Translations under genes and position numbers: made by a program | Shown here: positions 1-16,612 of the stretch, in pieces | Position numbering within the stretch: position 1 is the stretch's first letter | Layout: every line of letters begins with the position of its first letter | The notes under the pieces: generated by a model | What the model was told of the DNA's origin: nothing | The model's input: only the letters and a program-made list of their open reading frames with translations | Database searches by the model: none | Assembly: GCA_025526995.1 (NCBI GenBank) | Contig: JAHLKG010000057.1 | Coordinates: 1-16,612, forward strand | DNA: 16,612 nt | Reading direction: 5' to 3' | DNA from: Powellomyces hirtus | Lineage: Eukaryota; Chytridiomycota; Chytridiomycetes; Spizellomycetales; Powellomycetaceae

Positions 1-322
1 GATAGTAAATTAAATTAATGTTAGGGTTACAGTATAAAAACTTGGCTGTATGCTGGAATATCCTTAGAGCTCCGGGTGCTAGCTCACACTTCATACTCGT
101 GAGCAGAAACAATTCCGGAGATTGGACAATCAGCAGGAAACCAAAGCCGGCGTCAGTAAGAATCTATAATCCTTGCTGTAAAGTGCTGGTAAGTAGGCTC
201 CTCAGAGACTGGATACCGAAAGTATCCCCCGGTACCGACTGGGACACGCCAAGCATCTTACCAGAAATTCCGATGGTAAGTAAAGATATAGTCCACCGCC
301 CAAGAAATTGGTGCGATAACTG
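1..322 (+). other. Group I intron, 3' part (rnl H69 region), 5' end outside window
   Basis: Catalytic core of a group I intron. The landmarks in order are an ATGCTGGAATATCC segment (about 55-69), the Q-like element GGACAATCAGCAGGAAACC (124-142), an R-like element with CTCAGAGACT (about 202-211) and the S-like element AAGATATAGTCC (about 283-294). The Q segment matches the one in the orphan core at 13.6 kb. I place the 3' end after GATAACTG (about 322), because the L2449 and L2504 introns in this window also end in GATAAC followed by AACTG, and group I introns end in G. The next bases resume rnl helix 69. The exact insertion position (L1915-L1917) is uncertain because the 5' exon is not in the window. 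No endonuclease gene is visible in this part. Confidence 0.8.
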
Positions 323-350
323 CTAACAGTCCTAAGGTAGCGAAGCTCCT
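323..350 (+). rRNA. rnl: Large-subunit rRNA exon (helix 69 3' strand), about 28 nt
   Basis: The string AACAGTCCTAAGGTAGCGAA corresponds to the near-universal AACGGUCCUAAGGUAGCGAA of 23S rRNA (about E. coli 1918-1937), at the helix 69/71 junction of domain IV, which contacts the decoding centre and tRNAs. The exon lies between two group I introns. The 3' boundary is set after CTCCT: exon TCCT can pair with GGGA in the next intron with a terminal U-G pair, as expected for P1, and the following exon restores the helix 71 hairpin. Boundaries may be off by a few nucleotides. Confidence 0.88.
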
Positions 351-1285
351 CCAAAGTCGGGGACTTTATAAATTTTTTAGGTTTTGTATGTGCTAGTCAA
401 TGTGCTCTGTTTAAAGTAAACCTCAAATAAAAGATAAATTAATAATTTGAAGGAATCAAAAAAAAGTAAAAAATGAACATGAATTATTTCTAGGTTATGG
501 ATATGTTAGTTAACAACCCAACGTGGTTGTCTGGTTAGATAGATGGGGAAGGCAGTTTTCAAGTAGGTGTAAATAAAAGAGTAAGTAGTGCAGGTAGAGA
601 ATATTATGTGGTAACTACCACATTTTATTTGGGTTTGCATACCATGGACCATTATGTTTTGGAGGCCGTTCGTGACTACTTGCACTGTGGGCATATTTAT
701 CAGAAAGGTCCTGCTTTCTGTTCTTTTGAGATTAAAGCTAAAGGCGATTTGAGTTCTTATCTTTTTCCTCATTTAGACAAATATCCTTAGTGTGGTTCGA
801 AACGCCTAGATTATTTAGATTTTAGAAATGTTGCAGATATGGTTAGTAAAAAACAACATTTGACTCCGGAGGGTTTAGAAGAAATAAGAGTAATTAAAGC
901 CGGAATGAACAATGCTAGAAGAAAAAACTTCATGAGCTGCGTTCAGAAAGGATTGATTTAATTTCCCTTTAAGTTTATATAGCAAATCTTTCTATATGCT
1001 GGAACACCCTTAGAGCCTTGTACGCTAACCTGCACTCCGAACGCAAGCAGGTAGAGACAGTTACAAGGATTGGGCAATCAGCAGGAAACCAAAGTCGGCA
1101 GCAACCGAGTGGTGGAGCCCTTGGCTTCGGTACGTTTGCCATCCCCGTGGTGGCTAGGGGTTGCAGGGTGCGGATTAGTAGGATCCTCAACGACTACACG
1201 AAAGAATTACTGGAAACGTTGGGCACGCTTCTTTCCGGTAATATGATATAGTCTGGCCGTATTCGAAAGAATATGGGTTAACGCG
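351..1285 (+). other. Group I intron in rnl (about L1943) encoding a LAGLIDADG endonuclease
   Basis: The intron separates GCGAAGCTCCT from GGCACTTAATTGGTGTCCCGC, two neighbouring parts of rnl domain IV. The core follows the ORF: ATGCTGGAACACCC (about 996-1010), Q-like GGGCAATCAGCAGGAAACC (about 1072-1090), R-like CCTCAACGACTACACG (about 1185-1200) and S-like TGATATAGTCTGG (about 1244-1256). It resembles the first intron and the orphan core at 13.6 kb, so these three look like one family. The ORF sits upstream of the core, near the 5' end of the intron. The 3' splice site is taken at the G just before GCACTTAATT. Confidence 0.83.
473..961 (+). CDS. Single-motif LAGLIDADG homing endonuclease (read with TAG = Leu)
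   Basis: Reads as 162 residues ending in TAA if TAG is leucine. The motif LSGLIDGEG lies at residues 19-27, and its E26 is the expected metal-binding acid. Later come a YPLCGSKRLD segment (about 104-113) and the C-terminal LTPEGLEEIRVIKAGMN. This matches the I-CreI-type family, whose members carry one motif and act as homodimers cutting rRNA-gene target sites to spread their intron. TAG codons fall at residues 7, 22 and 106. The one inside the LAGLIDADG motif and the one in YPL are positions where leucine is expected. No TGA or internal TAA occurs. The start at 473 is the first ATG after a TAA; ATG at 497 or 503 is also possible. It is probably intact, but activity is inferred. Confidence 0.85.
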
Positions 1286-1399
1286 GCACTTAATTGGTGT
1301 CCCGCATGAATGGTGAAACGAACTATCAACTGTCTCCTAAATGGACCGCGTGAAATTTTAATTCCAGTGCAGATACTGGTAACTCTCAACTAGACGAGA
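1286..1399 (+). rRNA. rnl: Large-subunit rRNA exon (helix 71 to entry of the peptidyl-transferase ring)
   Basis: GCACTTAATTGGTGTCCCGC rebuilds helix 71, followed by ATGAATGG (23S ACGAAUGG), CAACTGTCTCC and GTGAAATTTTAATTC (23S GUGAAAUUGAACUC), ending TAGACGAGA. Joined to the next exon this gives GACGAGA plus AGACCC, the form common in mitochondrial rRNAs at E. coli 2053-2065. The sequence is moderately divergent, but every helix landmark is in order. The split in front of AGACCC places a group II intron directly in the peptidyl-transferase ring. Confidence 0.9.
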
Positions 1400-2744
1400 G
1401 GATCGAGAAGCTAAGTTTATAAATACAATGGAAACTATTGGAAACGTTATAGCTCGATATTGGACCCGCAAGGGGCCTAGGCAACTGCCGACAGTCGGGC
1501 AAAATGCTGGTACTGTAGGTGTAGGTTTTTCAGTCTGTAGTTGACCCGGCGGGGTTGGCTTATGGTTGAGCGAGCTCGACTTTGATGGAACTTTAAAAAT
1601 GCCCTAGGAAGTCGGGTTCAATGGCTTTTGTAGAGAGTCGATACTCTGATTTATAACGGGCTTACACCCCAACCTATAGAGGTAATGGACCATTGGTTTA
1701 AAGTATTTTTTAAGGGACCGTCCAGATGTAGTAATGCAACTTAAATAATAAATAAAGTATTCAACAATAACAACAAAAAATTCAAATTAAGCAGAGCTGT
1801 GAAAGCCGCTCTGATATTTTATAAAGAGTTTTCATAAATGATAACTGGCATGCTTTTGAGTGACGCCCGCATGCAAATGAATGGGAAAAATGCTAGATTA
1901 TTCTTTGTACTGATAATTTTACTAAAGAAGAAATCCTGTTGTAGATAGACATTATTTATAGTACCTTAAACATTAAAGGTGAACTTTAAAGACATCATGA
2001 GTATTGGCGTATTAGATTTAGTAGAGCATAAAGTGAAAAATAACGGAATTGGTGAAAGAATATATGCCAAAAAGTTATTAGTATAGAATTGTAATAAGAG
2101 ATTAAAAAAATAACGTGACTCCAATAAAATTCCCTTGGATACCCTTTCCATGAGTTTAGAACAGCATAAATTCCGAGTAATTGGGTTTATGAAGACTGTT
2201 CGATAAGGCATAGATTTTATTTGTGCTTAACTAGTTATCAACGGGCAGCGTGAGCGAATCTATGGTAGAAGCATCATTAGGAAAGCTAAGTCTTTCTGCA
2301 AGCAACAAGCTTGTGTTTTTGGAATAAACTTTTCGTCTTTATTCTGAGGGTAATAGAAGGCTGATGATGTATAGTAGGGCCCTAAAGATAACGTGAATGT
2401 GTATTTATAGAAACTTCGTAAGCCCAATGGTTTGTAATTGATGGATAAAATCCATTAATAATGACTTACAGTCATCATTTATTACCGGACAAGTGGCAAC
2501 ATTTGTTATCGGCCAGTGGGTAAAGGATTGTCTAAAAAGCGAATGGTTTATTGTAATGATAGACATAGGGTTATTTAACCTACACCGAAAGGTGGCCAAC
2601 TTAGACTATAGGTGCTAAAGCCTTATAAGGAAAGGTAGATCCAATTTAAGGATCTTGTAAATTTAGTGCGTGAGCCGTATGTGATGAAAGTTGCTCGTAC
2701 GGTTCTTACCGGGGCAAGGTTCGTGAGAACTTTCCTACCGGAAC
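1400..2744 (+). other. Group II intron in rnl (about L2059)
   Basis: Domain V is clear at 2672-2706: GAGCCGTATGTGATG, then GAAAG, then a complementary arm ending CGTACGGTTCT, including the AGC catalytic triad. Domain VI follows (about 2709-2740) as CCGGGGCAAGGTTC / GAACTTTCCTACCGG with a candidate bulged branch A seven or eight nucleotides before the 3' end, and the intron ends in AC. Both flanks are rnl exons that join correctly. The 5' end would be GGATCG, which is not the usual GUGYG, so the 5' boundary is less certain. Length is about 1345 nt. It contains a broken LAGLIDADG frame rather than a reverse transcriptase, an arrangement known for some organellar rRNA group II introns. Confidence 0.85.
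1838..2031 (+). pseudogene. Decayed LAGLIDADG endonuclease inside the group II intron
   Basis: One frame from ATG 1838 reads GMLLSDARMQMNGKNARLFF, a first LAGLIDADG motif and its usual follow-on. A second frame, from about 1912, reads NFTKEEILLLIDIIYSTL and then EYWRIRFSRA, typical of the region after the second motif of double-motif enzymes. The two are joined out of frame, the central part with the second motif is missing, and TAA codons interrupt the second segment (1987 and 2029). The remaining loop to about 2600 has only short broken frames. I read this as a deleted, frameshifted endonuclease; it is unlikely to be functional. Confidence 0.65.
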
Positions 2745-3006
2745 AGACCCTTTAAAGCTTTACTACTAGGAATTGTGACAATCGATTCTGAGGTAGTTTG
2801 TCTGGGGCGGAAGCCTACTAAATAGTAACGTAGGCCTACAAAGGTATGGATCTATATAAAGATCGAAATGTCGCAATGGATTAAACATACTTGACGGGGT
2901 GGTTCACAAACCTACCCGGGATCCAGTCCGCTCGCCGGGCTTGGTCGGTCATAGTGATCCGGATGATTTAGTCATCCGCTCAAGGAATCAAAGTTACTTA
3001 AGGGAT
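2745..3006 (+). rRNA. rnl: Large-subunit rRNA exon (domain V, peptidyl-transferase centre)
   Basis: Starts AGACCCTTTAAAGCTTTACT (23S 2060 onward), continues through GTTTGTCTGGGGCGG (23S GUUUGACUGGGGCGG), AAATAGTAACGTAGGCC and GGTCATAGTGATCCGG, and ends CTTAAGGGAT at the U2449 equivalent. These are core elements of the peptidyl-transferase ring and the A/P-site region of domain V. Conservation here is much better than in the SSU rRNA gene downstream. The 3' boundary follows the exon-terminal T rule for group I introns, and the next exon continues AACAGGCTGG. Confidence 0.93.
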
Positions 3007-3347
3007 AAATTTTGTCCCCCATCATCGTAAGGTGATGCGCAAAACTGGGTGAATTGCAAGAAAATCCGACTGTAAAACCAAGGATAACTTGCAGCGAAGC
3101 TGTTGTCGGCACATGATCACTTGGCCCCGTCCCGTCGATAGACGGGCTCAGGGGCGTCGGCTACGCCCGACAGTGATTTGGCAGCAGAACGTTCAACGAC
3201 TAGACAGTGAGTTATGCCAACAATAATCTGTCCACGAGCGCCCAGCCCCTGAACCCGTCGTCTACGGGCTTTCAGGGTGATGACATAGTCTGAGCATGAC
3301 GGTAACGTCATGAAGGTGGTATAAAGAGGCCATCGATAACACAACTG
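3007..3347 (+). other. Group I intron at rnl L2449, no ORF
   Basis: A short intron (about 341 nt) interrupting GGGAT/AACAGGCTGG at the well-known L2449 site. Its core has GGTGAATTGCAAGAAAATCC, AACTTGCAGCGAAGC, GTTCAACGACTAGACAGTG and TGACATAGTCTGAGC, and it ends GATAACACAACTG. The core nearly duplicates that of the L2504 intron 50 nt downstream. Two GC-rich hairpins of the dispersed palindrome type (about 3126-3172 and 3240-3288) have been added in peripheral loops, giving loop segments unlike the AT-richer core. No endonuclease frame remains, so mobility would need a trans-acting enzyme. Confidence 0.88.
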
Positions 3348-3402
3348 AACAGGCTGGTCGTGGGTTGGAGTCCTTATCTTACCCGCGCTTCGGCACCTCG
3401 AT
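3348..3402 (+). rRNA. rnl: Large-subunit rRNA exon, 55 nt, between L2449 and L2504 introns
   Basis: Begins AACAGGCTGGTCG (23S 2450 onward, carrying the A2451 equivalent) and ends CGGCACCTCGAT (23S 2493-2504). It carries several of the central catalytic-site nucleotides. Both boundaries follow group I rules: the upstream intron ends in G, and this exon ends in T at the U2504 equivalent. Joined to the next exon it gives CACCTCGATGTCGGCTC. Confidence 0.93.
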
Positions 3403-3545
3403 GAATATAAACGTCCCCCCGCTTAGTAATAAGCGGTGTGGAATTGGGTGAATTGCAAGGAAATCTCCCTGAGATAATTTGCAGCGAAGCCTAGTGCGGT
3501 AGCTTGCTCTATGCATGTGCACTAGGAACGTTCAACGACTAATGA

Positions 3546-4176
3546 GTGAGTTTTACCGACAATAATCTCGACACGAGCGCCCAACAACTTTTTTTTGTAT
3601 TGGCGGGTTCTATTTTTAATAATTTCTTCTATTTGGTGTTTTCGGTTATTTTAGGTTATTATTTAAAGTTTTTTTAGGGTGCTACCCTGGAGGTACATCA
3701 GTCCAGGGGACTTATTGGGATAATTAGGGGGGAGGTTCAAGGTACCTTCACGGAAATAATACCCCCGTACGCACAGGCCCTCCTTGACGGGCTAGCAAAC
3801 CCAACTCATGGTAAAATAATGAAGACGATAAGCCAAGTAGTTAGCAACTACACTGAAAAACATATTAATATTAAATGCTTTCTACACTAATAACTTCAGC
3901 GTATCTACCTTGATACCAACATCCACAGACTTAGTTCCGTACACGGCCCCGGCCGTGGAGCTAATTCCATATTCAGCCCAAATAACAGACGTGGTCCCCG
4001 TAGCCCTCCCTAAGGGCACTATTGCGTTTATTGGTGGGTTTTCAGGTTTAATTATTAGGCCTTTTAGATCCACAGCAGTTTTATAGAACATTCCCCTAGA
4101 GGAGGATGACATTAATTTAGCAATAGTTAGGGGTAACATAAACCCTAAAACAGGCAAAATAGATTTTAGTTATAGA
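3546..4176 (+). other. Unrecognised open frames upstream of the L2504 endonuclease
   Basis: Two overlapping frames stay open when TAG is Leu. Frame A (3546-3890, TAA end) reads from about 3600 a hydrophobic segment (FYLVFSVILGYYLKFFLG) followed by soluble sequence such as RGLIGIIRGEVQGTFTEIIP. Frame B (3832-4176) is in phase with the endonuclease, has no stop for 115 codons, and reads for example PKGTIAFIGGFSGLIIRPF. Neither matches a family I can name, and no ATG opens frame B. A minus-strand frame of 91 codons (3882-4157) also exists. This could be an N-terminal extension of the endonuclease reached by frameshift, a captured gene fragment, or chance. Function unknown. Confidence 0.35.
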
Positions 4177-4839
4177 ATGGGGTTACACCAAACCTCTAAG
4201 TATTGGAAACAACATAGAGAAAATCTGCCTAAAGAGTTCCCTGTTGAATTAGGAGAAATTATAGTAGGGATTATGCTGGGTGATGCAACAATGTATAAAA
4301 AACCTGGTGGCAATGCATTCCTAAAAATAGAACAAGGCTGGAAACACAAAGAATATGTCGACCATCTTTTCTCCTTATTCCAAGATTGGGTCTTTAGAGT
4401 TGAGCCTTATGCTCGCTCTGACCGCGGAGTAAGAGAAGGTTAGGTTAAAAGTTATAGTTTTAAAACTATGGCTTGTGAGGCCACTAATCCATTTTATTAT
4501 CTGTTTACTCCAGAGGGCAAAAAAATAATTGTCGAGGGGGTAGTCAGAGACCGCTTAACCGCCCGCGGGTTAGCTTACTGGATTATGGACGACGGATCAT
4601 TAGAGTCTGGGCGCGCCACCGTCTAGCACACAGAAAGCTTTAGTGATTCTGAAATAGACATATTAGTGGCGGAGCTGGGTTCTAAATTCGGTCTTGAAGC
4701 AAAAAGAGTTAGACACGTTAACGGAAAAGGGAGTGTCTACTCAATAATAAGATTTACTGCAGCTTCTTCTAGAGACCTAAGAAACCTGGTTTGGCCTTAT
4801 ATGTTGCCAATGTTTCAATACAAATAGCCAAAAGTCTGA
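4177..4839 (+). CDS. Double-motif LAGLIDADG homing endonuclease of the L2504 intron (TAG = Leu)
   Basis: 220 residues from ATG to TGA if TAG is leucine. Motif 1 is IVGIMLGDA (29-37, acid D36) and motif 2 is [10 protein letters not shown] (132-141, acid D139), the two metal-binding aspartates of a monomeric LAGLIDADG enzyme. Between them lie SYSFKT and the family-typical [19 protein letters not shown]. After motif 2 come LHTESFS, FGLEAK and a C-terminal [15 protein letters not shown] codons are at residues 89, 150 (the L of LHTESFS) and 217 (the L of YKLP), all leucine positions in the family. TCA encodes serine in DDGS and in VYSII. The frame is open upstream for 115 codons, so the true start is uncertain. 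Its likely role is mobility of the L2504 intron. Confidence 0.87.
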
Positions 4840-4923
4840 TAAGACAAAAAGTTGATGACATAGTCTGAGCAATGTGGCGACACATTGAAGGGGGGTTTAA
4901 GTGACCCTCCGATAACATAACTG

Positions 4924-5175
4924 GTCGGCTCTTCTCTTCCTGGTGTTGTAAGTGATACCAAGGGTGTGGCTGTTCTCCACATAAAGAGGAACGTGAGCTG
5001 GGTTCAGATCGCCGTGAGGCAGATCGGATTCTATCTATTGAGAGAGAAGTAGAATAAAGATACTCGCCCCTAGTACGAGAGGACTGGGTTGAGAGAACCA
5101 ATGGTGAGGGGATATTAGATCCCGAAGCTACGTTCTTTAAAGATAACTCCTGAAACCATCTTAAGGAAGAAACAT
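4924..5175 (+). rRNA. rnl: Large-subunit rRNA 3' exon (end of domain V and domain VI)
   Basis: Runs GTCGGCTCTTCTCTTCCTGG, CCAAGGGTGTGGCTGTTC, GTGAGCTGGGTTCAGATCGCC, GTGAGGCAGATCGG and then the sarcin-ricin loop sequence CCTAGTACGAGAGGAC (5071-5086), which binds elongation factors. It continues through domain VI (GATCCCGAAGCTACG) and loses recognisable similarity near 5165-5180, so the 3' end is approximate. No intron lies within this exon. Confidence 0.92.
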
Positions 5176-5179
5176 CATC

Positions 5180-6640
5180 TGATATTATGATCTACTAATT
5201 AATGACACTGGGATAACCCCAGTTGTATTGGGTCATCATCCCACATTCACTTTGACGCTACCTCCCTATACCAATTGTCCTCCCTGTCTGGGTGCCGGTT
5301 GTCATAACACCGACCTGGTCTGTATGGACCACAAAACCTATACGTGGCTAAACCACCCTGGGGTGGTGACCATTATCACTGTTTTGTAATGTGTTGTCTG
5401 TTGACTTTGAATATCAAGATAAAGTCAATGAGGAGCTTTGTGTCGGTGGCCGCCTCGGGCGGTTCAACACCGACGTGGTTGAGTGGCAACCACAAAAGGT
5501 TCGATAAAGACGCTTTATATCCAACCATGGGTTGGATTGGAGGCTACACTCTATTGATCAAAGGTTTTACCGTAGATGCGTATCTCAAGCTCGTGGCCCC
5601 GAGCGTTATATTATGGTTGGAGCAAAGCGTCAACGCTTGGTCTGATAGACCGATCAAAGAGAGGGCTAGTAAGCCGTTGGAAGGACGGCTGAACAAGACG
5701 CATATACCCGACTGGGGCCGTCCCGTCGGGGGCCCCTGGGAAGGGTTCTATTCCGAACGTAGGTGAGGTTATAAAATCGATCGACCTGTTGGGGAGATGC
5801 TTGTTTCTCTTGGTCTGGTGGACCGATATAAGGAGGTCCATGAAGGTGTGGGCCCGACGGCAGTCGGGTGATGGTCCACAGACCCACACGCCTGATAAAG
5901 ACGCACTGTACTGGGGCCTGAAGGCCCCGCCGGCTCCGACCGGCAGCGAGGGATCGAGCCCATATTAAATGGTTTGAGCAAAGCGATAACGCCCTTGTGG
6001 TCGTTGACTTTGAGTAGAACGTAAAGGCATGAGAGCCATCTTGAGATGATTCGAAAAGACCGCTCTGTGTTGGGTCAGGGGGCCCTGAGCCCGGCTGCCG
6101 CCGGGCCGGCCCCTGTCGGGTTCGTGAAACGTATGACACCTTTGATCGAAAGGAATTTGACAACTCTAAAGTTGTCGAGGTCTTGGTGACCTCAATGACT
6201 GTAGATGCTGGTCTGGTGTGGTCACAAAGACCACGTCATCTTTAGGATGATAGCTGTGTCGGCTGTAACGCCTACGTGGTTAAGTGGCAACACCAACAGG
6301 TTGGATAAGACCGCTGTGATAGCGACATAAGGAGCGTCATATAATATTGGTTGAGCCTGGGGCGAAACGCTGTTATCGGAAGACTATTTCTAGGCTGTAG
6401 ATGGATGTGATGTATAGGGAACCACCAACAATACTGGAACCACACTAAATTAATGGTGGCACGTTGTCAAACGTGATCATGAAATCCCCGACATAAGTCG
6501 GGTGATGGTCCACAGACCCAACGCCTGGTAGAAACGAAAGGATTGAGTGAATACGCGTCTTATCAGTCATCCTGAACCCGACCCCAGTCGGGCCTTCCTG
6601 CCTTATCACAACAAGTTGCTCAAGTAAACGGCTAGTGCCG
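5180..6640. repeat. Degenerate stem-loop repeat region
   Basis: Spacer without a supported gene. Similar blocks recur in the same order: ACGTGGTTGAGTGGCAAC...GATAAAGACGCT at 5474-5513 against ACGTGGTTAAGTGGCAAC...GATAAGACCGCT at 6274-6315; a 24-nt identical block at 5863-5886 and 6497-6520; and ATGGTTGGAGCAAAGCG (5612) against ATGGTTTGAGCAAAGCG (5969). Many short hairpins have different stems between similar flanks. Frames that look long on either strand here (up to 165 codons) arise from GC-rich repeats and have no protein-like conservation. It may be an older, more decayed relative of the hairpin array at the right end. Confidence 0.65.
6087..6107. repeat. GC mini-palindrome, copy 1 of 3 identical cores
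   Basis: Contains GAGCCCGGCTGCCGCCGGG, an imperfect palindrome (GCCCGGC / GCCGGG arms). The same 19 nt occur at 13356-13374 and 13925-13943. Related forms with arms varying as CCCGACTGCCGTCGGGC are scattered through the spacers and the right-hand array (about 7499-7515, 14302-14320, 15415-15432, 15749-15765). Compact GC palindromes of this kind are known in green-algal and fungal mitochondrial DNA. Confidence 0.75.
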
Positions 6641-6651
6641 TGGGCCCTTGC

Positions 6652-6699
6652 CTAGCCAGGCAAGGCCTGACTTGGCTGGCAAGGATGCTTGCCATCCTA
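6652..6699 (-). repeat. Double-hairpin element, copy a
   Basis: Inverse-oriented copy of the element best seen at 15075-15126. On the plus strand it reads CTAGCCAGGCAAGG then CTTGGCTGGCAAGG then ATGCTTGCCATCCTA. Two hairpins can form: a 5-bp GGATG/CATCC stem, and a stem of about 10 bp, CTAGCCAGGCAAG with CTTGGCTGGC, with one C-C mismatch. It is embedded in GC-rich spacer. Confidence 0.8.
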
Positions 6700-6801
6700 C
6701 GGTACCCCGTCGTGGGCCCGCTGCCGGGCGGGGTCTGTGGACCATCGCCGGCGGGCCCTTGAACCCGTCTTACGACGGGCGGCCCCAGGGGCGCTTAGCC
6801 C

Positions 6802-6893
6802 CTTGCCAGCCAAGCCAGCGACCGTGCAGTCACGGTTGCCTCGGGTCCTAGCCAGACAAGCTGTATTGGCTGGCAAGGATGCTTGCCATCCTA
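6802..6893 (-). repeat. Double-hairpin element, copy b (composite)
   Basis: Positions 6848-6893 are a full copy (CTAGCCAGACAAG, TTGGCTGGCAAGGATG, CTTGCCATCCTA). It is preceded by an inverted partial copy (CCTTGCCAGCCAAGCCAG) separated by an ACCGTG/CACGGT hairpin. The same composite arrangement recurs at 13683-13767 with the parts permuted, suggesting repeated insertion or inversion of the same modules. Confidence 0.75.
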
Positions 6894-6964
6894 GACCCGG
6901 GCTCGTCTGGCTACGACGGGCCATTCCATTTCACTGGCCCTTCCCCGAGTCGGGTCATAGCATC

Positions 6965-7440
6965 TCCATTACATTCCGATCAGAATGATTATTCATTACA
7001 CTCATTTCGATCTAGGATCTCATTCACTCCATTCATGGCATCTACATGATAAATCATTACGATCAAAACATCTCCCATAGGTCGATCAACTATTAATAAT
7101 GCATGTTACTGCCCTAACATCACAACATAGGTATTGCCCTACCTATAATCGTTCCACTAATCGTTACACAACATTCCTTAAAGTCATTACATTCCTTCTA
7201 GTCATTATGTTTCACTAATCGTTGCACTTCATTCATTTTATTCATTACGTTACACTACTCGTTCCACTCTATCGGGTTACACCCTCACCAATAGTTTCAT
7301 TATGCTCCACTACATTTCTTTTGGGGTCATAAAGACCCCGACACCTTTAGGGTGTCAGTCATTACATTCATAATAGCATCTTCATTTCATTACGATACAG
7401 GCATTTCCTTACAGTCAATCACTATATTAATGGCATCATT
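6965..7440. repeat. Low-complexity tract rich in CATTAC / TTCATTAC words
   Basis: About 475 nt poor in G on the plus strand, dominated by CATTAC, TTCATTAC, TCGTTCCAC and similar words. It is broken by a few hairpins such as GGGGTCATAAAGACCCC and GACACCTTTAGGGTGTC (about 7324-7356). No gene is visible. A shorter patch of the same word set appears at about 7755-7830, just upstream of the SSU rRNA gene. Confidence 0.75.
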
Positions 7441-7515: not shown

Positions 7516-8002
7516 CGTAAGAAGCGTACCGCCGGCGGGCCCTACCGGCCCCAGCGCCCCTGACGGCGCGGCCACCCTAATGATCAAAGCATCTCCAAAC
7601 AATAGAATTGTCTTACGATCATCCAGCGCGTATTCCTGCTGTCATACCAGTGCGTCCTTTCGAACCTCTTCAAGCTTCTCATGTATTCTCACAACAAGTT
7701 GTTCTAATCCAACGGACAAAGCGTTGAACAAGTCAACCAATTTAATATTAAGATTCATTACATTCATAAGATCGGTATACCGATCTAGTCATTTCATTCA
7801 TAGCATCATTACTGCCCTAATGATCACCATTATTCTAAGCCTTCCCCGAGTCATGACCTTCATGATAGTGATAATGGTTAAACCAAGATGGATGTAAAAC
7901 GAGTAAGGGATTAAGTCAAATCCAAAGTAGAATAATGAAAGGGAAATAAGCGGCCTTACGAGACCCATACCCTCCTTACGGGGGGGGTCATTCCTATAGT
8001 AA
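7516..8002. other. Spacer upstream of the SSU rRNA gene, no gene seen
   Basis: Contains a GC-rich start, mixed unique sequence, a second CATTAC-like patch with the palindrome GATCGGTATACCGATC (about 7771-7786), and an inverted repeat ACCATTAT/ATAATGGT around 7827-7878. The frame of about 105 codons beginning at 7580 has no recognisable domain and its composition follows the low-complexity sequence, so I do not call it. Any rRNA promoter or processing signal would lie here, but none can be identified. Confidence 0.5.
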
Positions 8003-8247
8003 AGTGACCAGTGTATGATCATGGCTCATTATAAACGCAGGTCTTTGGCATAACACATGCTGGTAAAATGAATACAGAAGTATTCTTTGCAGAAAGGTGA
8101 GTAAAGGGTTTATCTGCCCGATGGGGTCCCTGGTGGCCCCCTTGGATGGTTTACCCCGTAGGATTAGGTAGATGGTTTGGTAACAGCAAACCATGCCTGT
8201 GATCCTTAGCATAGGCCACAGAGGGTTTAAATGAAGACCCTTCCCTT

Positions 8248-8278
<31 letters not shown>

Positions 8279-9280
8279 AAAGCTTGACCCAGCCAATGAC
8301 AGCAGGATCAATTCTGCTTCCTTGTACCTGTATAATGAACTAGGTCAAGAGAATAATCCCGGCAAAACCTGTGCCAGCAGCCGCGGTAATACAGGTGGGA
8401 TGGCGTTTGAAATCTTAAATAGGCATAAAGTGTGATTAGGTGGCCTAGGGCCAGCATCGTCCGGGCTATCAGCCCGAGGCACGATGGCTGGCTATGGCTT
8501 GAGTTCTAAGAGGAGAGTTAGAGGAATAACCAATGGAAGGATGAAATCTATAGATATTGGTTGGAACATCAAAAGCGACAGCATCACTCTATTTTAGAAC
8601 TGACACTGAATCACTAAAGTGTGGGGAGCAAACCGGATTAGATACCCGATTAGTCCACACCCTGAATACTGAATGTTCCGGTCAATACACTAATTACCCA
8701 ACATTCCGCCTCCATAGTACTATGGCAACGTAGAAATGGAATTGATTTGGCGGGTTTTAACACCAGCAGTGGAGCATGTGGTTTAATTGGAGGATACGCC
8801 CTAAATCTTACCTTCTCTTATAGTCAATAACGCCTTATGGCGGGACCGAGGTCATCACCTTGAACCTTTTGACTTTTGGTGTTGCATGGCTGTTGTAAGT
8901 TGGTTCAGTGATGATTCGATAACCAGCGCTACGTGCAATTAGGCACCCCACTTCAAGCACGCACGGCCCCATGAGAAGGGCTACACACATGCTACAAAGG
9001 TAACTATCAATATCATCAACCGTTACCTCAGTTCGGATTGTGATCTGGAACTCGGTCACATGAAGTTGGAATTGCTAGTAATCGCAGTTTATCATCCTGC
9101 GGTGAATCTAAGTCTTGAAATTGTACAAATCGCCTGTCGCACGCGCCGAGTTGAATTATCTGTAGTAATTTTTAGCTGTACTCTTATATCTTTTCCAGTT
9201 ATCTTACTTAGGTTTTTTGGCAAGGGGCGTTAAGTCATAACAAAGTCACGGTTCGGGAACGAGTTGTGAAATTAGATACA
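8003..9280 (+). rRNA. rns: Small-subunit rRNA, uninterrupted but divergent
   Basis: 5' landmark TGATCATGGCTCA (about 8016-8028). Then AGCAGTGAGGAATATTGGGCAATGGGCGAAAGC, a perfect 530 loop GTGCCAGCAGCCGCGGTAATAC (8371-8392), ATGAAATCTATAGATAT (690 loop), GGATTAGATACCCGATTAGTCC (8635-8656), GTGGAGCATGTGGTTTAATT, GGTGTTGCATGGCTG and GGGCTACACACATGCTACA. The 3' end is AAGTCATAACAAAGTCACGG plus a GGGAAC-capped helix 45. At about 1280 nt it is shorter than bacterial 16S. No intron or break is visible, unlike the split rRNA genes of many chlorophyceans. The decoding strand reads TTGTACAAATCGCCTGTCGC instead of TTGTACACACCGCCCGTCAC, so the gene is either fast-evolving or decaying. Ends are approximate. 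Confidence 0.9.
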
Positions 9281-9480
9281 TATCTATGTTTTATATTTGA
9301 TCATTATTACCCCTGGTGTGTTGATCCCACCTTCCTTATAACCAATTGGTCTTGTCTGGCCATAACCACGTTTCGTACTCTCCATGAAAGCTTGTGTCAC
9401 TGAATAGTCGATAGTCTGCTGGTTGCCCACCAGCAAGTATTGTACAGTATCACGATGATGCCGCCTGGCCGATAATGATT
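9281..9480. other. Spacer after the SSU rRNA gene, no gene seen
   Basis: Short AT-rich sequence with an ordinary hairpin (CTGCTGG / CCACCAGCAAG near 9417-9437). No reading frame, tRNA fold or terminator can be supported. Confidence 0.4.
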
Positions 9481-9592: not shown

Positions 9593-10959
9593 CCCAGAAT
9601 TGTTTAGTCCAAAGACTCAGTAGTTTACTCCGCCCAAAATCGCAACCAGATTGTCGGCAAACTGTTGCCTCTCTTTTGACGATTTTGATCATTTCATGAT
9701 TTTGGTTAGAATTTATTATTTTTGCATATAGATTAAAATCTTTGGATCTTTTGGTTGTTGTCCGTTAATAGACGGTAACCCATGTTAGGGAGAGAACATC
9801 GACCGACCACGTTTCAACTTCTTGATTCATGATTAACATGAGGCCGTATAGGACTCTAACCTACATTTTACTGATTTACAGTGTTGTAACTAAGGGGACT
9901 CTATAAAATAAAGAGTTTTAACAATCATGATAGGCAGGAGTAAAAGCCTGATAAATTAGAATACTATATCTTATTTAAGATCATGCCGTGAATTTCTTCT
10001 AGTATAATTTTATCATATCACGAACATGCTGTACTCTACCATCAATTTCTAATGGTTCTTTAATAAACTCGGGGTGGAGTTACCCGATAACAACTATAGG
10101 GGCTACAGGGAAGACAGGTTAACTATAAATTCTTTCAATAATCTTACAGTTCTTTGGTGAGTCGTTTAACTTAAGGCGAACCCTCTCTTGCTTTCTATAC
10201 AACCTTACCATAAAACAGGGTGGCTAGAAATTAGTATAAAACTTTCGTAAATTGGAGAATATTCTTTACCTCATGAGCTTTACAACTAAATAGTTATAGC
10301 TTTGTCGACTCTGCCCGAAGGGATGTAATAATATCTAATGGTAAAATAAGTTTTACCAATGCACAACAGATAAAACTGTCCCTCCATAATCTCTACCTAG
10401 TATTTACGCTCTTATGGATTTATCCTTCAAAGATAATAACGTTTAGGGTCAAACTAATGCAACATCATAAATGGGTGAGGCAATATTTCCTTGACATGGA
10501 TTTTACTAAATAACCTGATTATTACAGTACTTATTAACCAAGGTTTCCTTGGTAACCTACAGCAAAGAATAGTTGGTATTATTATTATTCGTCCTACCAA
10601 AAATCTAAATTTTACTTGTTATTTCACCCCCTTTGTGGGTGAACCGACTACCGTAAAGCCCCTAGGGCTTGATTAATTAAACTGCCGCGTAGATATCTAC
10701 TAAACAATATCTGGCTCATAGTATACAAGTTTCTTGATAAAGATGGCATTTATTGAATATGTAACCGTAGTCTAGTTTAATCTATAAAAGAGTTACTATA
10801 CTGAATAGTTATTACGACCTTCAAGGTCTATTGTGCTGGGAGATTAAATTTAATAGGGGTAAGACTTTAAATGAGAAGGCTTGCTTTAAAAAGATAAATA
10901 ACATGTTGTAGTCATCTTGTCTTTCATCTATCTTTAAGATAAAATCAGACACGAACATC

Positions 10960-11046
10960 ACCCCCCGACCGCAGGGGGTTCCAGCATGTGATGGAATTCC
11001 CGAGGGCACCCGGTGGGGCCCATGGCCCGGCGGAGGAGCACCCATG
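10960..11046. repeat. GC-rich hairpin cluster in AT-rich region
   Basis: An abrupt block of GC-rich sequence (CCCCCCGACCGCAGGGGG, then GGGCACCCGGTGGGGCCC and GGCCCGGCGGAGG) within otherwise AT-rich DNA. It resembles the dispersed GC palindromes and looks inserted. No coding content is supported. Confidence 0.55.
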
Positions 11047-11935
11047 TCCATTTATTGACGTGATGGCTACGAGCCAGGAGGTCTTGTAACGATTTAGTCA
11101 TTTATTTGTTGGAAGGGCAGGTTAAAGTATTGGCGTATTTTACCTTATAGTTTTCGTTACATTCGTTTTAAACGATTTTGTCGAGAGAGATTAACTAGTC
11201 TTTATCTAGGGGGGCTTATCAGGCTTAAAGCCTAAAACAGTAGCTTGATTCATTAAATTACTAGACCCTATTTATTGGGCCCCTACGTGGCTACAGCCTT
11301 CCCATGAAGGGATTAGATTAAAATATCAGGAGGAATACAGTATGACGCTCTTGTTATTTCTCTAAGTTAACTTTAAGTTGAATTCTAGAATCGTTAGGTT
11401 AAGTATATAGTACTTCCTATTAAAGTAAGCAGCCAATAAAGTTTTAAGGTTATGTGCACTTATCTATTACCCATGTTGTTGACTCTAAAATAAAGGTCTA
11501 CTAGCTTATACATGTTCCTCATAAGAGTGAGTAGGTGCAAGTGTAATAATTAACCAAACCTACACTTTATGCATTTATTAACCCGCTTGCCGGGGTAGCC
11601 CTTTAAGATATAGTGTTTAAGGATGAGCTGTATAATACTAATACCTAAAAATATTAAAATGCGGATAGAAATGGTTCCACATTTATACAAGTTATTCAGC
11701 TAACTTTAGGGTGTGGCAGCTTCCTTCACTCTTAATCTAGACCAAAGGTTTGTTTGAGTAAGTTGCATTATAGCCTATGAATAAGATTTGCCGTTAGGCC
11801 CTTAAGGGGGAATTGTTACTATAACATGAACTTAGGTCGATGATTCGACATCCTAACATTAGTAATCTTGCTATACTCTATTTAGAGCTGCATGAACCAA
11901 TTAGTTGCCCCTGTGTTGTATGATTTGTAATAGCT

Positions 11936-12066
11936 GGCCCGACGGGGGCCCGGAAGGGGCCGACAGGCGGGTACGGTGTTGCAAGTTTGGTTGTGGAGCA
12001 GCCCTAGAGCCGGTGGGCTAGGTCCGTGGACCTGAGGCGTAAGCCGAGGGCCCGTCGGGGGCCCGT
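11936..12066 (-). repeat. GC-rich cluster with an inverted copy of an array hairpin
   Basis: Near 12008-12050 the minus strand reads CCCTCGGCTTACGCCTCAGG followed by TCCACGGACC. This matches the array unit at about 16385-16415 (CCCCTCGGCTTATGCCTCAGG then TCCAGCGGACC). The rest is made of GGGCCCG and GACGGG palindromes. This shows that array-type hairpins also occur in the opposite orientation several kilobases away. Confidence 0.65.
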
Positions 12067-13355
12067 TTAGGGTTTTGGTTATTATCCTATTTTTGATTAC
12101 TAACTTTAGCTTATTAACTGTCTACCCCCTCCCTTTAGCGTGATCCAGCACGTGCCATAGTTCAGCTAATATTTGTTTGGGTGAAACATTTAGTTATTTA
12201 AGATTTTATCTTTGCCATTGTTGCTCTCGCCTTGACCACGGTAAAACTTGTAATTAATGATAACACCTAATCAATTTAGGATGATCTTTTTGCCATGGAT
12301 TTAAGTATACTTGTTGGCCCGACAGCAGAGGTAAGTTCTCTTTAGCGGAACCTTTATAGTTTGGAGAACAGAATTGATACTTGGGCTATAGTAGGCAGGT
12401 AAAGTATTTATAACCTTTCCCGTTTAGGCAATTTGAATCCTGGATGATTCAAAATCATCTGGTTTGTAATGTTTGGATCTAGTTAAAATGATGTTTTTAC
12501 TATAACGAAGATCCAGACAAGAGTTAAGTTAGGAATAGTTTAGAATTCTTATTTGCTAGATTATGGATTATGGAGTCTCATTTAGGAAAACACTTATAGG
12601 TTTGGAGAAATCGAAGTAGGATTTATACAGACAGCAATTGTATTTTTAAATACGTAAACATAGAGAGGTGGTTTGTAAACATCACAAAATGAACATTAAC
12701 GATCCTTAACATTGTGGTTTATGTCGTAAAGTTGTGGTAGGACCATTAATAGTACCACAGCTAAACGAGCTTTACTATAAGATTATCCTGCTTACCTTTG
12801 AGTTTATCATGATGTCAACTCTATTTTACCACCTTTTAGTTTATGGCCTTATGTTCGTTATTAATTGATTGTTGCTTATTTAATTATAACGTTCCAGTTA
12901 TTTCGCTCCTTCACTTTGTTACGTCATGCCACGTCTACTGTTAAGCGAGAAATAATACTATAAATTAACGGGGAACTGCCAAACAAGAAATCTCCCTATA
13001 GGGTTTAAGTGTTAATGTACTTTATGGTGATTTTGGAACACCCAAGAATACTCATAAAATCACGCTAATAACTACGTGCTTGTTCCTGAGGTTTCCTATG
13101 GCCTACGGCAAACTTAGAACAGTTCTTGCTGTTTCTATCTATTCATGATTTCAATACTTTCTCAACTCATATTCAAATTTAGGATAAATTCAAGGGATTT
13201 ATTATCTCAACCAAGACGTGATAACCCTACGGAAATATCTTAGAACTACCTTATAAAATCCAATCTGTATCGACCGGTTTATTGTTCAGGGGCAATTAAT
13301 GCTATAATAAACAACCTAGAACTTCACGGTATAAAATACAATTTCCTTAGAACCT

Positions 13356-13374
13356 GAGCCCGGCTGCCGCCGGG
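13356..13374. repeat. GC mini-palindrome, copy 2
   Basis: GAGCCCGGCTGCCGCCGGG, identical to the copies at 6087 and 13925, located just left of the orphan group I intron core. Confidence 0.75.
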
Positions 13375-13682
13375 GACCCTGCCCAACGAGCCGGCAGCTC
13401 TTTCAACACCAAGATCACAAAAGTAGTACAAAAGATCATATCGTAGTACCAAAAGACTCGGAAGATTGGGTGATGTGGTTTTCTTTGGGTAAAATGGCGC
13501 TAGATGCTGGAACACCCTTTTAGCCCCATCTAGTTCAAAAAACCCAAACTCACCAACCAACTATTGCCTACTCTATGCAAGCTAACTTCCGGGGGGACCC
13601 TGCCTGCGCCAGGGCAGAAAGAGTTCCAACAATTGGACAATCAGCAGGAAACCAAAGCTGCTATCATTTAAAATCATGCGGC

Positions 13683-13767
13683 CCTAGCCAGACAAGCCCG
13701 GGTCTTGGACCCGAGGCAACCGTGCCAGCACGGTCGCTGGCTTGGCTGGCAAGGATGCTTGCCATCC
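13683..13767. repeat. Double-hairpin element, copy d (composite, inside intron core)
   Basis: CTAGCCAGACAAGCCCGGG at the left, then GGACCCGAGGCAACCGTG and CACGGTCGCTGGC, ending TTGGCTGGCAAGGATG CTTGCCATCC. It shares the ACCGTG/CACGGT hairpin and the CCGAGGCAACC segment with composite copy b at 6802-6893 but in a different order and strand arrangement. Confidence 0.72.
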
Positions 13768-13910
13768 GACGGCAGGCGGGCCAACGACACCCAAGGGTGA
13801 TGGCGGCAAAACAGCGACTGAGGCGAATCAGTGATTTTGATGCGGGCGGATCCCGGCTGAGGGCCGGGGGTATTTTCGATACCCAGTATCTGAGGAGCCT
13901 GGGCTACTTG

Positions 13911-13952
13911 CTGGCAAGGATGCTGAGCCCGGCTGCCGCCGGGGCCATCCTA
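13911..13952. repeat. Double-hairpin half-element with a GC palindrome nested in its loop
   Basis: The usual stem-loop is GGCAAGGATG CTTGC CATCCTA. Here the GGATG and CATCC arms are intact, but the 5-nt loop is replaced by a longer segment containing GAGCCCGGCTGCCGCCGGG (13925-13943). This is one family inserted precisely in the loop of another. Confidence 0.75.
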
Positions 13953-14126
13953 CTTTTTACCATTAATTGATAAGCGACGGAATTATCACATTTGAAGATC
14001 TAGTCCACCACCTGAGAAACTGTCGGTAGAACCGACGGCTGCGTGTATAAAGAACTAAAGCAAAAGCAACCATCGGCATCAGTAAAACCAGACGAGTCTG
14101 CCGAGGGAGAAATTGTCGGTAGAACC

Positions 14127-14175
14127 TAGGATGGCAAGCCACCCTTGCCAGCCAAGTCAGGCCTTGCCTGGCTAG
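14127..14175 (+). repeat. Double-hairpin element, copy f
   Basis: CCTAGGATGGCAAGCC then ACCCTTGCCAGCCAAG, TCAGGC, CTTGCCTGGCTAGG. The second hairpin is the same as in copies g and h; the first has changed from GCATCC to CCACCC, weakening its stem. Confidence 0.8.
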
Positions 14176-14179
14176 GCCC

Positions 14180-14425
14180 CGACCAGGAAACCTTTTATAG
14201 GGCGTTGGCTTTCAACCAACCATGGGGAAGGTGCTCCTCTCGTCCCTCAGGGACTCCTGGCCCTCGGTCTTCCAGACCTTGGTCCACCGGACCTGGGCCC
14301 GACTGCCGGCGGTCGGCTACGCCGAGGGCCCCTCAGGGCCCCGCCGGTGGGCCTTCCGGCCCCAGTCGGCAATCTGCTGAACACCCACAATTTTTGGTAT
14401 AACCAGGGGGGACGTTTCACGCCCT
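14180..14425. repeat. Array-type hairpin unit and GC palindrome cluster
   Basis: Positions 14182-14221 form a standard unit: ACCAGGAAACC, AT-rich linker, GGGCGTTGG, loop, CCAACC. It is followed by a cluster of GC palindromes (GGCCCTCGG, GGGCCCGACTGCCGGCGGTCGG, GGGCCCCTCAGGGCCCC written here as separate arms) up to about 14375. No coding content is supported. Confidence 0.65.
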
Positions 14426-14596
14426 AGGAGATTTTATAGTCTTTTTATCATTTTTCCCGTATAAAGATTAAAGAATCCTCCACAGGTGGTAAGTCTCCTG
14501 CCAGGTGTAAGTCCTGTATAATGACCAAGCATTGAGTATCCGTGGTGGGTTGCACGCTCGACACTCACGGCGCTTGTATTGCTCGCCAGTCCCCTA

Positions 14597-14788
14597 CCTC
14601 GCACGACCATCACATGCAACTTAATAAGAAAAGAGAAAATCAGCTAGTTAGATCACTTTAAGGTTCGAGTTCAAGCAACCTGCTTTCAAGCATGCGTAGT
14701 ACTCTGAACTAGCTGTGCACCCTGATAGTGGTAATCACCCCACACTCGAAACCCCTCCTACTCTTATTTAACCGCCCGTCGTGCGAGG
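14597..14788. other. Candidate multi-helix structured element
   Basis: An outer 11-bp perfect inverted repeat, CCTCGCACGAC (14597-14607) with GTCGTGCGAGG (14778-14788), encloses an inner 9-bp perfect pair, CAGCTAGTT (14641-14649) with AACTAGCTG (14707-14715). Inside that are small stems GGTT/AACC (14662-14680) and GCTT/AAGC. It does not fold as a standard tRNA on either strand: the anticodon loop and T-arm fail. It may be a structural RNA, an intron domain or another nested repeat. Confidence 0.4.
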
Positions 14789-14867
14789 GGGGGCTGGTTG
14801 CGCTTTTGGTCGTAGGCTCCTACCGAGCCTTTGGACTAAAGCAAAGCAACCATCAGCATCAGTAAAC

Positions 14868-14925: not shown

Positions 14926-15074
14926 AAACGTGCTCCAGCATACAGCCGGACGGAGCCAGCCGACAAGCGTCGGGTCAACCCGACCAGGAAACTGTTTAAA
15001 GGCGTTGGTCTGTCGGCTGTTGCCCAACCAAGAAACATTTATTTAGGCGTTGGGTTAAAACCACAACCATTGCC

Positions 15075-15126
15075 GTAGGATGGCAAGCATCCTTGCCAGC
15101 CAAGTCAGGCCTTGCCTGGCTAGCCC
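15075..15126 (+). repeat. Double-hairpin element, copy g, nested in an array hairpin
   Basis: Reference copy. Hairpin 1 is GGATG GCAAG CATCC; hairpin 2 is GCCAGCCAAG / CTTGCCTGGC with one C-C mismatch and loop TCAGGC. It lies in the loop of an array unit whose outer arms are CGTAG (15074) and CTACC (about 15167). It is identical to copy h over 52 nt. Confidence 0.85.
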
Positions 15127-15231
15127 TTGTATCAGCTTTGCTGCTATCCGCCTCAGCGGCAAGGACTACCAACTTTATAGGCGTTGGCTTTCAACCAACC
15201 AACCGACATGCGTGGATCCTGATCCACCAGG

Positions 15232-15320
15232 ATGATGGTAGCGGGAGCTAAAAAGAAGGAAAAAGGCTAAAAAAGGACAGACTAGAAAAGAAGAAGAGAA
15301 CTACTGGAAGGCAGGGTGGA
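15232..15320 (+). other. Purine-rich tract inside the array
   Basis: About 85 nt nearly free of pyrimidines in long stretches on the plus strand (AAAAAGAAGGAAAAAGG, AGAAAAGAAGAAGAGAA). It interrupts the regular hairpin spacing. There is no coding or structural signal; such strand asymmetry can favour RNA-DNA hybrid or triplex formation, but that is inference. Confidence 0.6.
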
Positions 15321-16440
15321 TCTAGTTCGCCGACTCACTATCTTAGGCGTCCTTGGCCCTCCCCTACGGTCAGGTCCAAAGGACCAGGGAGACAGTTTCT
15401 AGTGCGTTGGCTTGAACCCGACAACCGTCGGGCAACCAACCATGCGTAACCACCCAAGGGTGGTGACCAAAAGAATCATAAAGCGTAACGACCTGAGCCC
15501 GTAGAACGGGTCATTACCAGAAACTAATTTCTAAAGGGCGTTGGCCGGAGACCAACCAGATTTCTATAGCTCGCTGACTCGCTAGAGGCGTAGCCCTTGT
15601 CATGACCTTAGGTCATGGCCCTCCGTAGGAGGGTCTAGGACTACCAGCAGATGCGTCGGGGGACCCCCGACCAATACTTGGGCGTAAAGACCTGCACGAT
15701 CTTTACCAGCAAACATTGATTTAAGGCGTCCTTGTCGGTCGTGTGAACCCGCCTGCCGTCGGGCCCACAACCAACGGACCCATGCGTCGGGCCATCACCC
15801 GACCAGGAAACTGTTTAAAGGCGTTGGTCGTCGCCCAACCAAGAAACATTGATTTAGGCGTAAAGACCTGAACGTTCTTTACCAACCGACAGATGCACGC
15901 TAACCAGCAAACCTGCAAACGCAATCTGTTGTAGGGCGCCGGGGGCCCGGCCATTAGAAACCTTTATAGGCCGTTGGGTTAAAACCACAACCATGAGAAG
16001 GTGCGTTGGGTTCCCCAACCCCATGCGTGGCCCAAGGTCCACCAGATTCTATAGCGTCCTCTCGCCGGCCCTTTCAAGGCCAACTCATGGCCCCTCGCCT
16101 GGTCACCCAGCCTCAGGTCCAACGGACCAACATGCGTCATGACCAGGAGGCCATGACCTATAGATCATAATGCGTTGGGTTAAAACCACAACCATAGGCG
16201 TAGCCCTCAGGACTACCAACTGTATAGCGTTGGCTTTCAACCAACCTACTGATTTATTAAATGCGTTGGATTGCCCTCCAACCCAATCCGTCGTACTGCC
16301 CCTACGACCAGATGTTATAGGCGTTGGCCGGTGACCAACCAACTAACTATGCGTCCTTATCAGGCGTTATCACGCCTTCATGGCCCCTCGGCTTATGCCT
16401 CAGGTCCAGCGGACCAGGAAACTGTTTAAAGGCGTTGGTC

Positions 16441-16492
16441 GTAGGATGGCAAGCATCCTTGCCAGCCAAGTCAGGCCTTGCCTGGCTAGCCC
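16441..16492 (+). repeat. Double-hairpin element, copy h, nested in an array hairpin
   Basis: Identical over 52 nt to copy g but inside a different host hairpin, with outer arms GCGTTGG (16432-16438) and CCAACC (16491-16496). Identity between the copies in unlike hosts points to recent spread of the element. Confidence 0.85.
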
Positions 16493-16612
16493 AACCTGTT
16501 GAAACATTTCTTTAGGGCGTTGGCTTGACGGGCCTTCAGGGCCCCACCAACCCAGCCGACAAGGAAACATATTATTGGCGTAGCCTTACAGCTACCAGGA
16601 GAATTTGATATA

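Follow-up and report, generated by a model that had tools for sequence, protein, structure and literature searches.

Hairpin arrays with shared ends and covarying arms in chytrid mitochondrial DNA

Two mitochondrial contigs of Powellomyces hirtus, together with a nuclear insertion, contain hairpin units that mostly share their ends and covary in their stem arms. Within each array most units point the same way, and a few whole units that are found beside one neighbor are missing beside a similar one. We put the probability at about one half that these units constitute a new family of repetitive hairpin elements of mitochondria, resembling GC clusters and the double-hairpin elements (DHEs) of fungal mtDNA, and that the complementarity of their arms is preserved at the level of the DNA. 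Covariation normally counts as proof that an RNA is functional; stems that covary with few G·U steps could be a natural example of the signal arising from mutation alone. If true, this would be a caution against RNA-gene calls from covariation in repeat-rich organelle DNA, and the mitochondrial hairpin elements, whose mode of movement stays unsettled, would gain a chytrid family whose ends are defined.

The window (the whole stretch analyzed, 16,612 nucleotides) is contig C57 of assembly GCA_025526995.1 and is contained in contig C54 at 743–17354. Its DNA is mitochondrial. Rfam places 3′ pieces of rnl, a group I intron, a group II intron and a continuous small-subunit rRNA gene (rns; 8003..9282, + strand) in the window, and the two LAGLIDADG ORFs found there are open only when TAG is read as an amino acid; TAG stands for leucine in the chytrid mitochondrial code according to the pertinent part of PMC6131824. 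Across the assembly, 33 stretches match chitin synthase at E values down to 3.3e-229 and represent a smaller number of genes in pieces; light-harvesting proteins gave no match. Together these features point to a fungus, probably a chytrid. COX1 (PF00115) also gave no match in the assembly despite the mitochondrial contigs in it, which may reflect an incomplete mitochondrial genome or a gene split by introns. An AT-rich stretch at 9700–13400 of the window separates rns from the array, and the only ORFs of at least 130 aa found in it with code 16 are two that start at 13324 and 13335 and extend past the stretch.

The array runs on the + strand from 14967 to the last base of the window, 16612, and consists of GC-[GT...AC]-CA units with AT-rich linkers (CAGGAAAC...TTTAAAGGC and similar). 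The sequence-only reading had described hairpins with fixed GCGT and ACC edges at 14960..16612, and they are indeed present: 36 of the 43 CGT sites between these positions have an ACC partner with a stem of at least 4 bp, compared with a mean of 3.0 units and a maximum of 7 in 30 dinucleotide shuffles. Pairing was not preselected in an arm-permutation test, in which the 5′ arm of each of 31 GCGT-delimited segments was matched to any ACC, taken either from that segment or from a permuted one. The observed total pairing of 89 exceeds all 2000 permutations (mean 29.0, maximum 52), and stems extend 3 bp or more beyond GT/AC in 20 of the 31 units (permuted 5.8, maximum 12). The density of GCGT-type units is 18.15 per kb in the array; elsewhere in the window it is 0.27 per kb on the + strand and 0.60 on the − strand. 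The GC fraction of the array is 0.52–0.55, versus 0.31–0.51 over 1–5200 and 0.44–0.49 over rns; non-coding stretches at 5251–7000 (0.49–0.60) and 13501–14750 (0.53–0.56) are of similar GC. A purine-rich stretch (AAGAAGGAAAAAGG...) breaks up the array at 15244–15320.

Although the array had been described as lying within 14960..16612, it does not end at the window edge and continues to approximately C54:18975; a second array occupies the minus strand of C55, and a remnant is found in nuclear DNA. The permutation test gave 30 against 11.5 (maximum 25) for C54:17355–18990 and 65 against 23.3 (maximum 44) for the C55 array, while the value of 15 observed for the nuclear remnant equals the largest permuted one. 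No clear signal was obtained from the minus strand of 5200–6960 (14 against 7.3, maximum 18) or from 9700–13400 (2 against 2.0). Orientation is strongly one-sided, with 52 units versus 4 in C54:15001–19000 and 23 versus 4 in C55:8001–11000. The nuclear remnant belongs to a mitochondrial DNA insertion on contig C21 (~373005–373675), where an rnl fragment is joined to a diverged hairpin array. Short GTGTAACGTA-type repeats lie inside some units of the C55 array (piece L046, ~470–490 and 1430–1460).

One dense array each on C54 and C55 would suit a replication or control region, with a single hairpin-rich array per mitochondrial molecule for initiation or segregation. The two ends of C55 (1–1909 and 16092–18000) show no difference across the 1909 bases compared, as expected of a ~16.1-kb circle or concatemer, which also agrees with this idea. 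However, single units occur elsewhere and on the other strand, and the number of mitochondrial molecules is uncertain because C58 and C59 share tRNAs with C55; we therefore consider a control region quite unlikely. At gathering level Rfam finds four tRNAs in C55:8001–18000 and nothing in C55:1–8000; C55 also carries nad4L and nad6-like pieces just below the Pfam cut-off. At the end of C54, a 292-base repeat (14528–14819 and 19066–19356, 99.7% identity, ~4.5 kb apart) could be a tandem repeat, a small circle or an assembly loop.

Turning back to the preferred reading of a hairpin element family, we picture its unit as GC-[GT-stem-AC]-CA beside an AT-rich linker, in two forms: a simple hairpin, and a three-way junction with two inner hairpins. 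The first unit of the array is a 20-bp hairpin at 14967..14986 (+). The D-type unit is a three-way junction in which an outer GTCC/GGAC stem encloses a variable second and a variable third hairpin (median length 67 nt, range 40–110 among model matches). A search of 40.4 kb of C54, C55 and the nuclear insertion with a covariance model built from five exact copies, one of them at 16351..16416 (+), gave 38 matches at E <= 1, the five training units included. At E < 0.01 there are 31, or 29 distinct places after removal of two from the repeated C55 end. The control, 19.8 kb of phage DNA, yielded one match (E 0.099) at a site that a pattern search had previously picked by chance. Further + strand units of the array lie at 16054..16129 (E 4.4e-7) and, as a weak match, at 15726..15781 (E 0.042). 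Dispersed copies outside the array were detected at 14231..14294 (+; E 6.3e-5), between rnl and rns at 7652..7719 (+; E 0.0016) and in the rnl–rns spacer at 5811..5904 (−; E 6.3e-7).

In a set of 78 units, whose scoring favored edges so that the percentages are upper estimates, the edge bases G, C, C and A are conserved at 91, 97, 91 and 62%; among the 36 distinct D-type rows, for which the model includes the edges, 23 start with GC and 14 end with CA. No constant target duplication was seen at the GCGT units. In the 78 units the base preceding GC is A, C, G or T in 15, 3, 43 and 37%, and the second base past the final C in 37, 11, 32 and 19%. Because the units end in ACC, and often in ACCA (A follows ACC in 62% of 78), they could be imagined as small RNAs with a tRNA-like ACCA end that were reverse transcribed and pasted back, and an RNA intermediate is suggested for the Allomyces elements in the relevant passage of PMC2800124. 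The last A is, however, poorly conserved (a CA end in 14 of 36 D-type rows) and the linkers recur too, which makes this origin highly improbable. A tRNA-like CCA end was itself rejected as a description of the 3′ edge owing to the weak conservation of the final A in both sets.

The D-type alignment was fitted to the covariance model, which favors pairing figures; in it, 91.3% of 516 cells pair, compared with 75.1% in shuffles. Changes on both sides, counted with count_structure_pairs, were found for 15 of the 17 pairs, in 78 cells versus 18.0 ± 3.3 shuffled, and the covariation score is 0.296, against 0.104 for shuffled and at most 0.101 for slid versions. The sequence-only reading had expected a covariance model of the unit to show significant covariation, and the D-type model does covary. 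RNAalifold, applied to an earlier 18-row alignment, returned a terminal GGTCC/GGACC hairpin and one inner stem and did not recover the outer and second stems; the terminal hairpin fold was rejected, with no pair changed on both sides in the larger alignment.

Comparisons between close copies show the same behavior at short range. For hairpins whose loops and flanks are at least 70% identical, 21 comparisons cover 111 pairs: 100 stayed the same, 7 differ on both sides and 4 on one, the last two counts dropping to 4 and 3 after removal of one event counted twice. Seven overlapping comparisons with 114 pairs gave 20 double-sided versus 15 one-sided changes. In one helix, three pairs and one further side changed between copies whose loop and flanks are 92% identical.

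These data bear on whether the units are ordinary diverged tandem repeats, with pairing as a by-product of a palindromic ancestor. Groups of units do recur as segmental copies, with 84% identity over 89 nt and 91% over 65 nt, and the TGG arm is common to 13 of the 31 window segments, among which only ten kinds of 5′ arm triplet occur. Unconstrained divergence would nevertheless break pairs, whereas the structure-fitted alignment retains them in the proportion given above, and changes to both partners of a pair are no rarer than changes to one. At this location Tandem Repeats Finder, run at score 40, reported no array. We consider this account very unlikely. The earlier claims that the arms differ while still pairing, and that simple tandem duplication would have copied the stems too, hold in part: pairing is kept while arms change, including between close copies, but stems recur and the segmental copies show that ordinary duplication contributes.

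An RNA selected from the array strand should tolerate G·U pairs but not A·C. The stem cells of the D-type alignment comprise 463 Watson–Crick, 8 G·T, 19 A·C and 26 other combinations, whereas the acceptor and T stems of 21 phage T5 tRNAs comprise 231, 16, 2 and 3, respectively. The G·T share is thus 8 of 471 standard pairs versus 16 of 247 (Fisher p 0.0015), and the ratio of A·C to G·T is 19 to 8 versus 2 to 16 (p 1.6e-4); as 6 of the 19 A·C cells come from one column pair, they are not all independent, and the D-type stems alone (8 versus 19) give p 0.052. Across all array helices A·C and G·T stand at 10 to 6 and 16 to 2, and shuffled arrays give 7.8 to 4.4 and 6.6 to 4.0, so that the A·C excess is partly a matter of base composition. 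Three tRNAs of the same mitochondrion have 3 G·T and 3 A·C among 36 pairs, with A·C at acceptor positions 2 and 3. Scarce G·T and more frequent A·C on the array strand argue against an RNA selected from that strand.

The explanation at issue is that the array is transcribed and its RNA folds are under selection, perhaps because they act as signals for processing, stability or termination between mitochondrial genes. It would account for the strong covariation (15 of 17 pairs) and for units that lie on the gene strand of both contigs (the rRNAs on C54; the tRNAs and nad4L/nad6-like pieces on C55). The region also folds better than shuffled sequence, with z of −4.75 for + RNA and −5.54 for − RNA (20 shuffles for each strand), but DNA parameters give a similar value (−4.35, +), and the z-scores do not decide between an RNA and a DNA reading. 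Rfam has no match at E <= 1 in 14940–16612, and its gathering-level window scan placed no gene inside the array. Given these points and the contrast in G·T and A·C with the T5 tRNA stems, we judge an RNA role of the hairpins unlikely. An RNA from the opposite strand is possible; read on that strand, the D-type counts become 19 G·U and 8 A·C. The sequence-only reading had left a choice between selection on the folded form and a process that copies one arm from the other: the G·U test disfavors an array-strand RNA fold, and arm copying fits better, which falls short of proof.

Within the preferred reading of elements maintained as DNA, the most likely process is that replication switches template within a hairpin, such that one arm is copied from the other; complementary arms would then need no RNA function. 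Template switching makes perfect stems, with several paired changes per step, as set out in sections of PMC8794818, and the three-pair change in one helix of the close copies may reflect such a step. For within-strand switches the same sections predict a surplus of G-C and U-A over C-G and A-U in the 5′ to 3′ direction. D-type pairs comprise 180 G-C, 167 C-G, 94 T-A and 22 A-T, although the support for switching from pair orientation is weak because two nearly fixed pairs contribute 55 of the T-A cells. The process is described in PMC8794818 for rRNA and microRNA genes, as opposed to a mitochondrial array, and its part in stem maintenance is called less clear there. Template switching does not explain the fixed edges. 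A bolder form of the reading is possible but tentative: the arms would be continually rewritten by template switching, yielding RNA-like covariation without RNA function, and the units would form a new cassette family in which the GC-GT...AC-CA ends mark a recombination or transposition boundary.

We infer that the arrays grow and shrink via gain and loss of whole units at shared edges, and the edges may be kept as the ends used in these events. Reading the sequences directly, the linker pieces that surround the first array unit are found joined without it at 16553–16568, and a scored junction match for the same unit lies at C54:17148. The unit at C54:18098–18115 is absent on C55 between similar neighbors, again read directly, and the CAACAG-bordered unit at C54:18877–18897, also absent on C55, is a looser case. 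These cases could equally have arisen by insertion or by deletion between short repeats. In a joined-flank test, 76 of 312 joins (24.4%; four offsets per unit, and so not independent) span a match, compared with 24.1% of 860 null joins made from the flanks of unrelated units, which is no overall excess of real over null. The top scores lean to real units, with 3 of 312 versus 1 of 860 at scores of at least 20, and 2 versus 0 at scores of at least 22.

Bacterial REP sequences, which are associated with RAYT transposases, are likewise hairpins with a fixed tetranucleotide at the foot that occur in arrays; the likeness to the fixed-foot hairpins described here is one of analogy alone. Closer comparisons are found in mitochondria. 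DHEs are described from fungal mtDNA of Allomyces and fission yeasts, and DHE-like elements from Candida, in the parts of PMC2800124, PMC4618339 and PMC10085805 that deal with them. Like these, the present units are GC-rich, hairpin-forming, repeated and mostly outside genes, and the D-type unit (29 places at E < 0.01) also holds two adjacent stem-loops, which the simple hairpins do not. In contrast to DHEs, as far as the Allomyces elements are portrayed in papers that cite them, an outer stem with GC-GT/AC-CA ends here closes the hairpin pair, simple hairpins share the D-type ends, and the units stand in dense one-way arrays.

Yeast GC clusters such as GC42 are palindromic and dispersed, with units that merge and shuffle (PMC4478555, sections on the clusters), and the array units resemble them in each of these respects. 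The constant AG flank of the clusters was not found at the 78 GCGT units, and GC42 loops are described as gathering more changes than stems, whereas array stems differ between types. The repetitive hairpin-forming elements (RHEs) of sponge mitochondria lie in intergenic mtDNA and, like the array units, range from single and double hairpins to more elaborate ones; two RHE types differ from the array in that their stems are conserved and their loops variable, and the word "compensatory" has no occurrence in the available text of PMC2800124, the source for both statements.

The sequence-only reading knew of no named family with this layout, and this stands as far as tested by the Rfam search of 14940–16612, although mitochondrial hairpin elements are known as a kind. 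We found no published account of the array in the open-licence literature searched. A D-type pattern search gave one chance match in phage and none in genome contigs, and the simple-hairpin pattern hit four viral and two bacterial stretches at no more than 0.93 units per kb. An rnl pattern and part of an intron protein matched nothing in viral contigs or in bacterial and archaeal genomes. No relatives were thus found outside the assembly in these collections of viral contigs and bacterial and archaeal genomes, which are a weak test for a mitochondrial family.

The window also has a second kind of element, a double hairpin of 48 nt that is bounded by TAG on each side and present in five full and several partial copies and in both orientations. 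Full copies lie on the − strand at 6652 and 6848 and also occur at 14127; within the array, one at 15076..15123 (+) sits inside a GTAG...CTAC unit, for which a related unit without the element is found at ~C54:18811, and an identical second copy at 16442..16489 (+) sits inside a GTTGG...CCAAC unit. TAG flanks both sides of all five full copies. From its sequence, the element is consistent with a GC-cluster-type insertion with TAG duplication, and it recalls the AG target of yeast GC clusters.

In the C55 tRNAs for Gln and Pro (piece L051, 7724–7796 and 8060–8131, where L051 8092–10000 corresponds to C55 16092–18000), acceptor pairs 1–3 contain mismatches, while the first three acceptor pairs of tRNA-Asp are fully paired. 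Acceptor mismatches of the same pattern accompany 5′ tRNA editing in chytrids, as reported in the section of PMC4284800 on this process.
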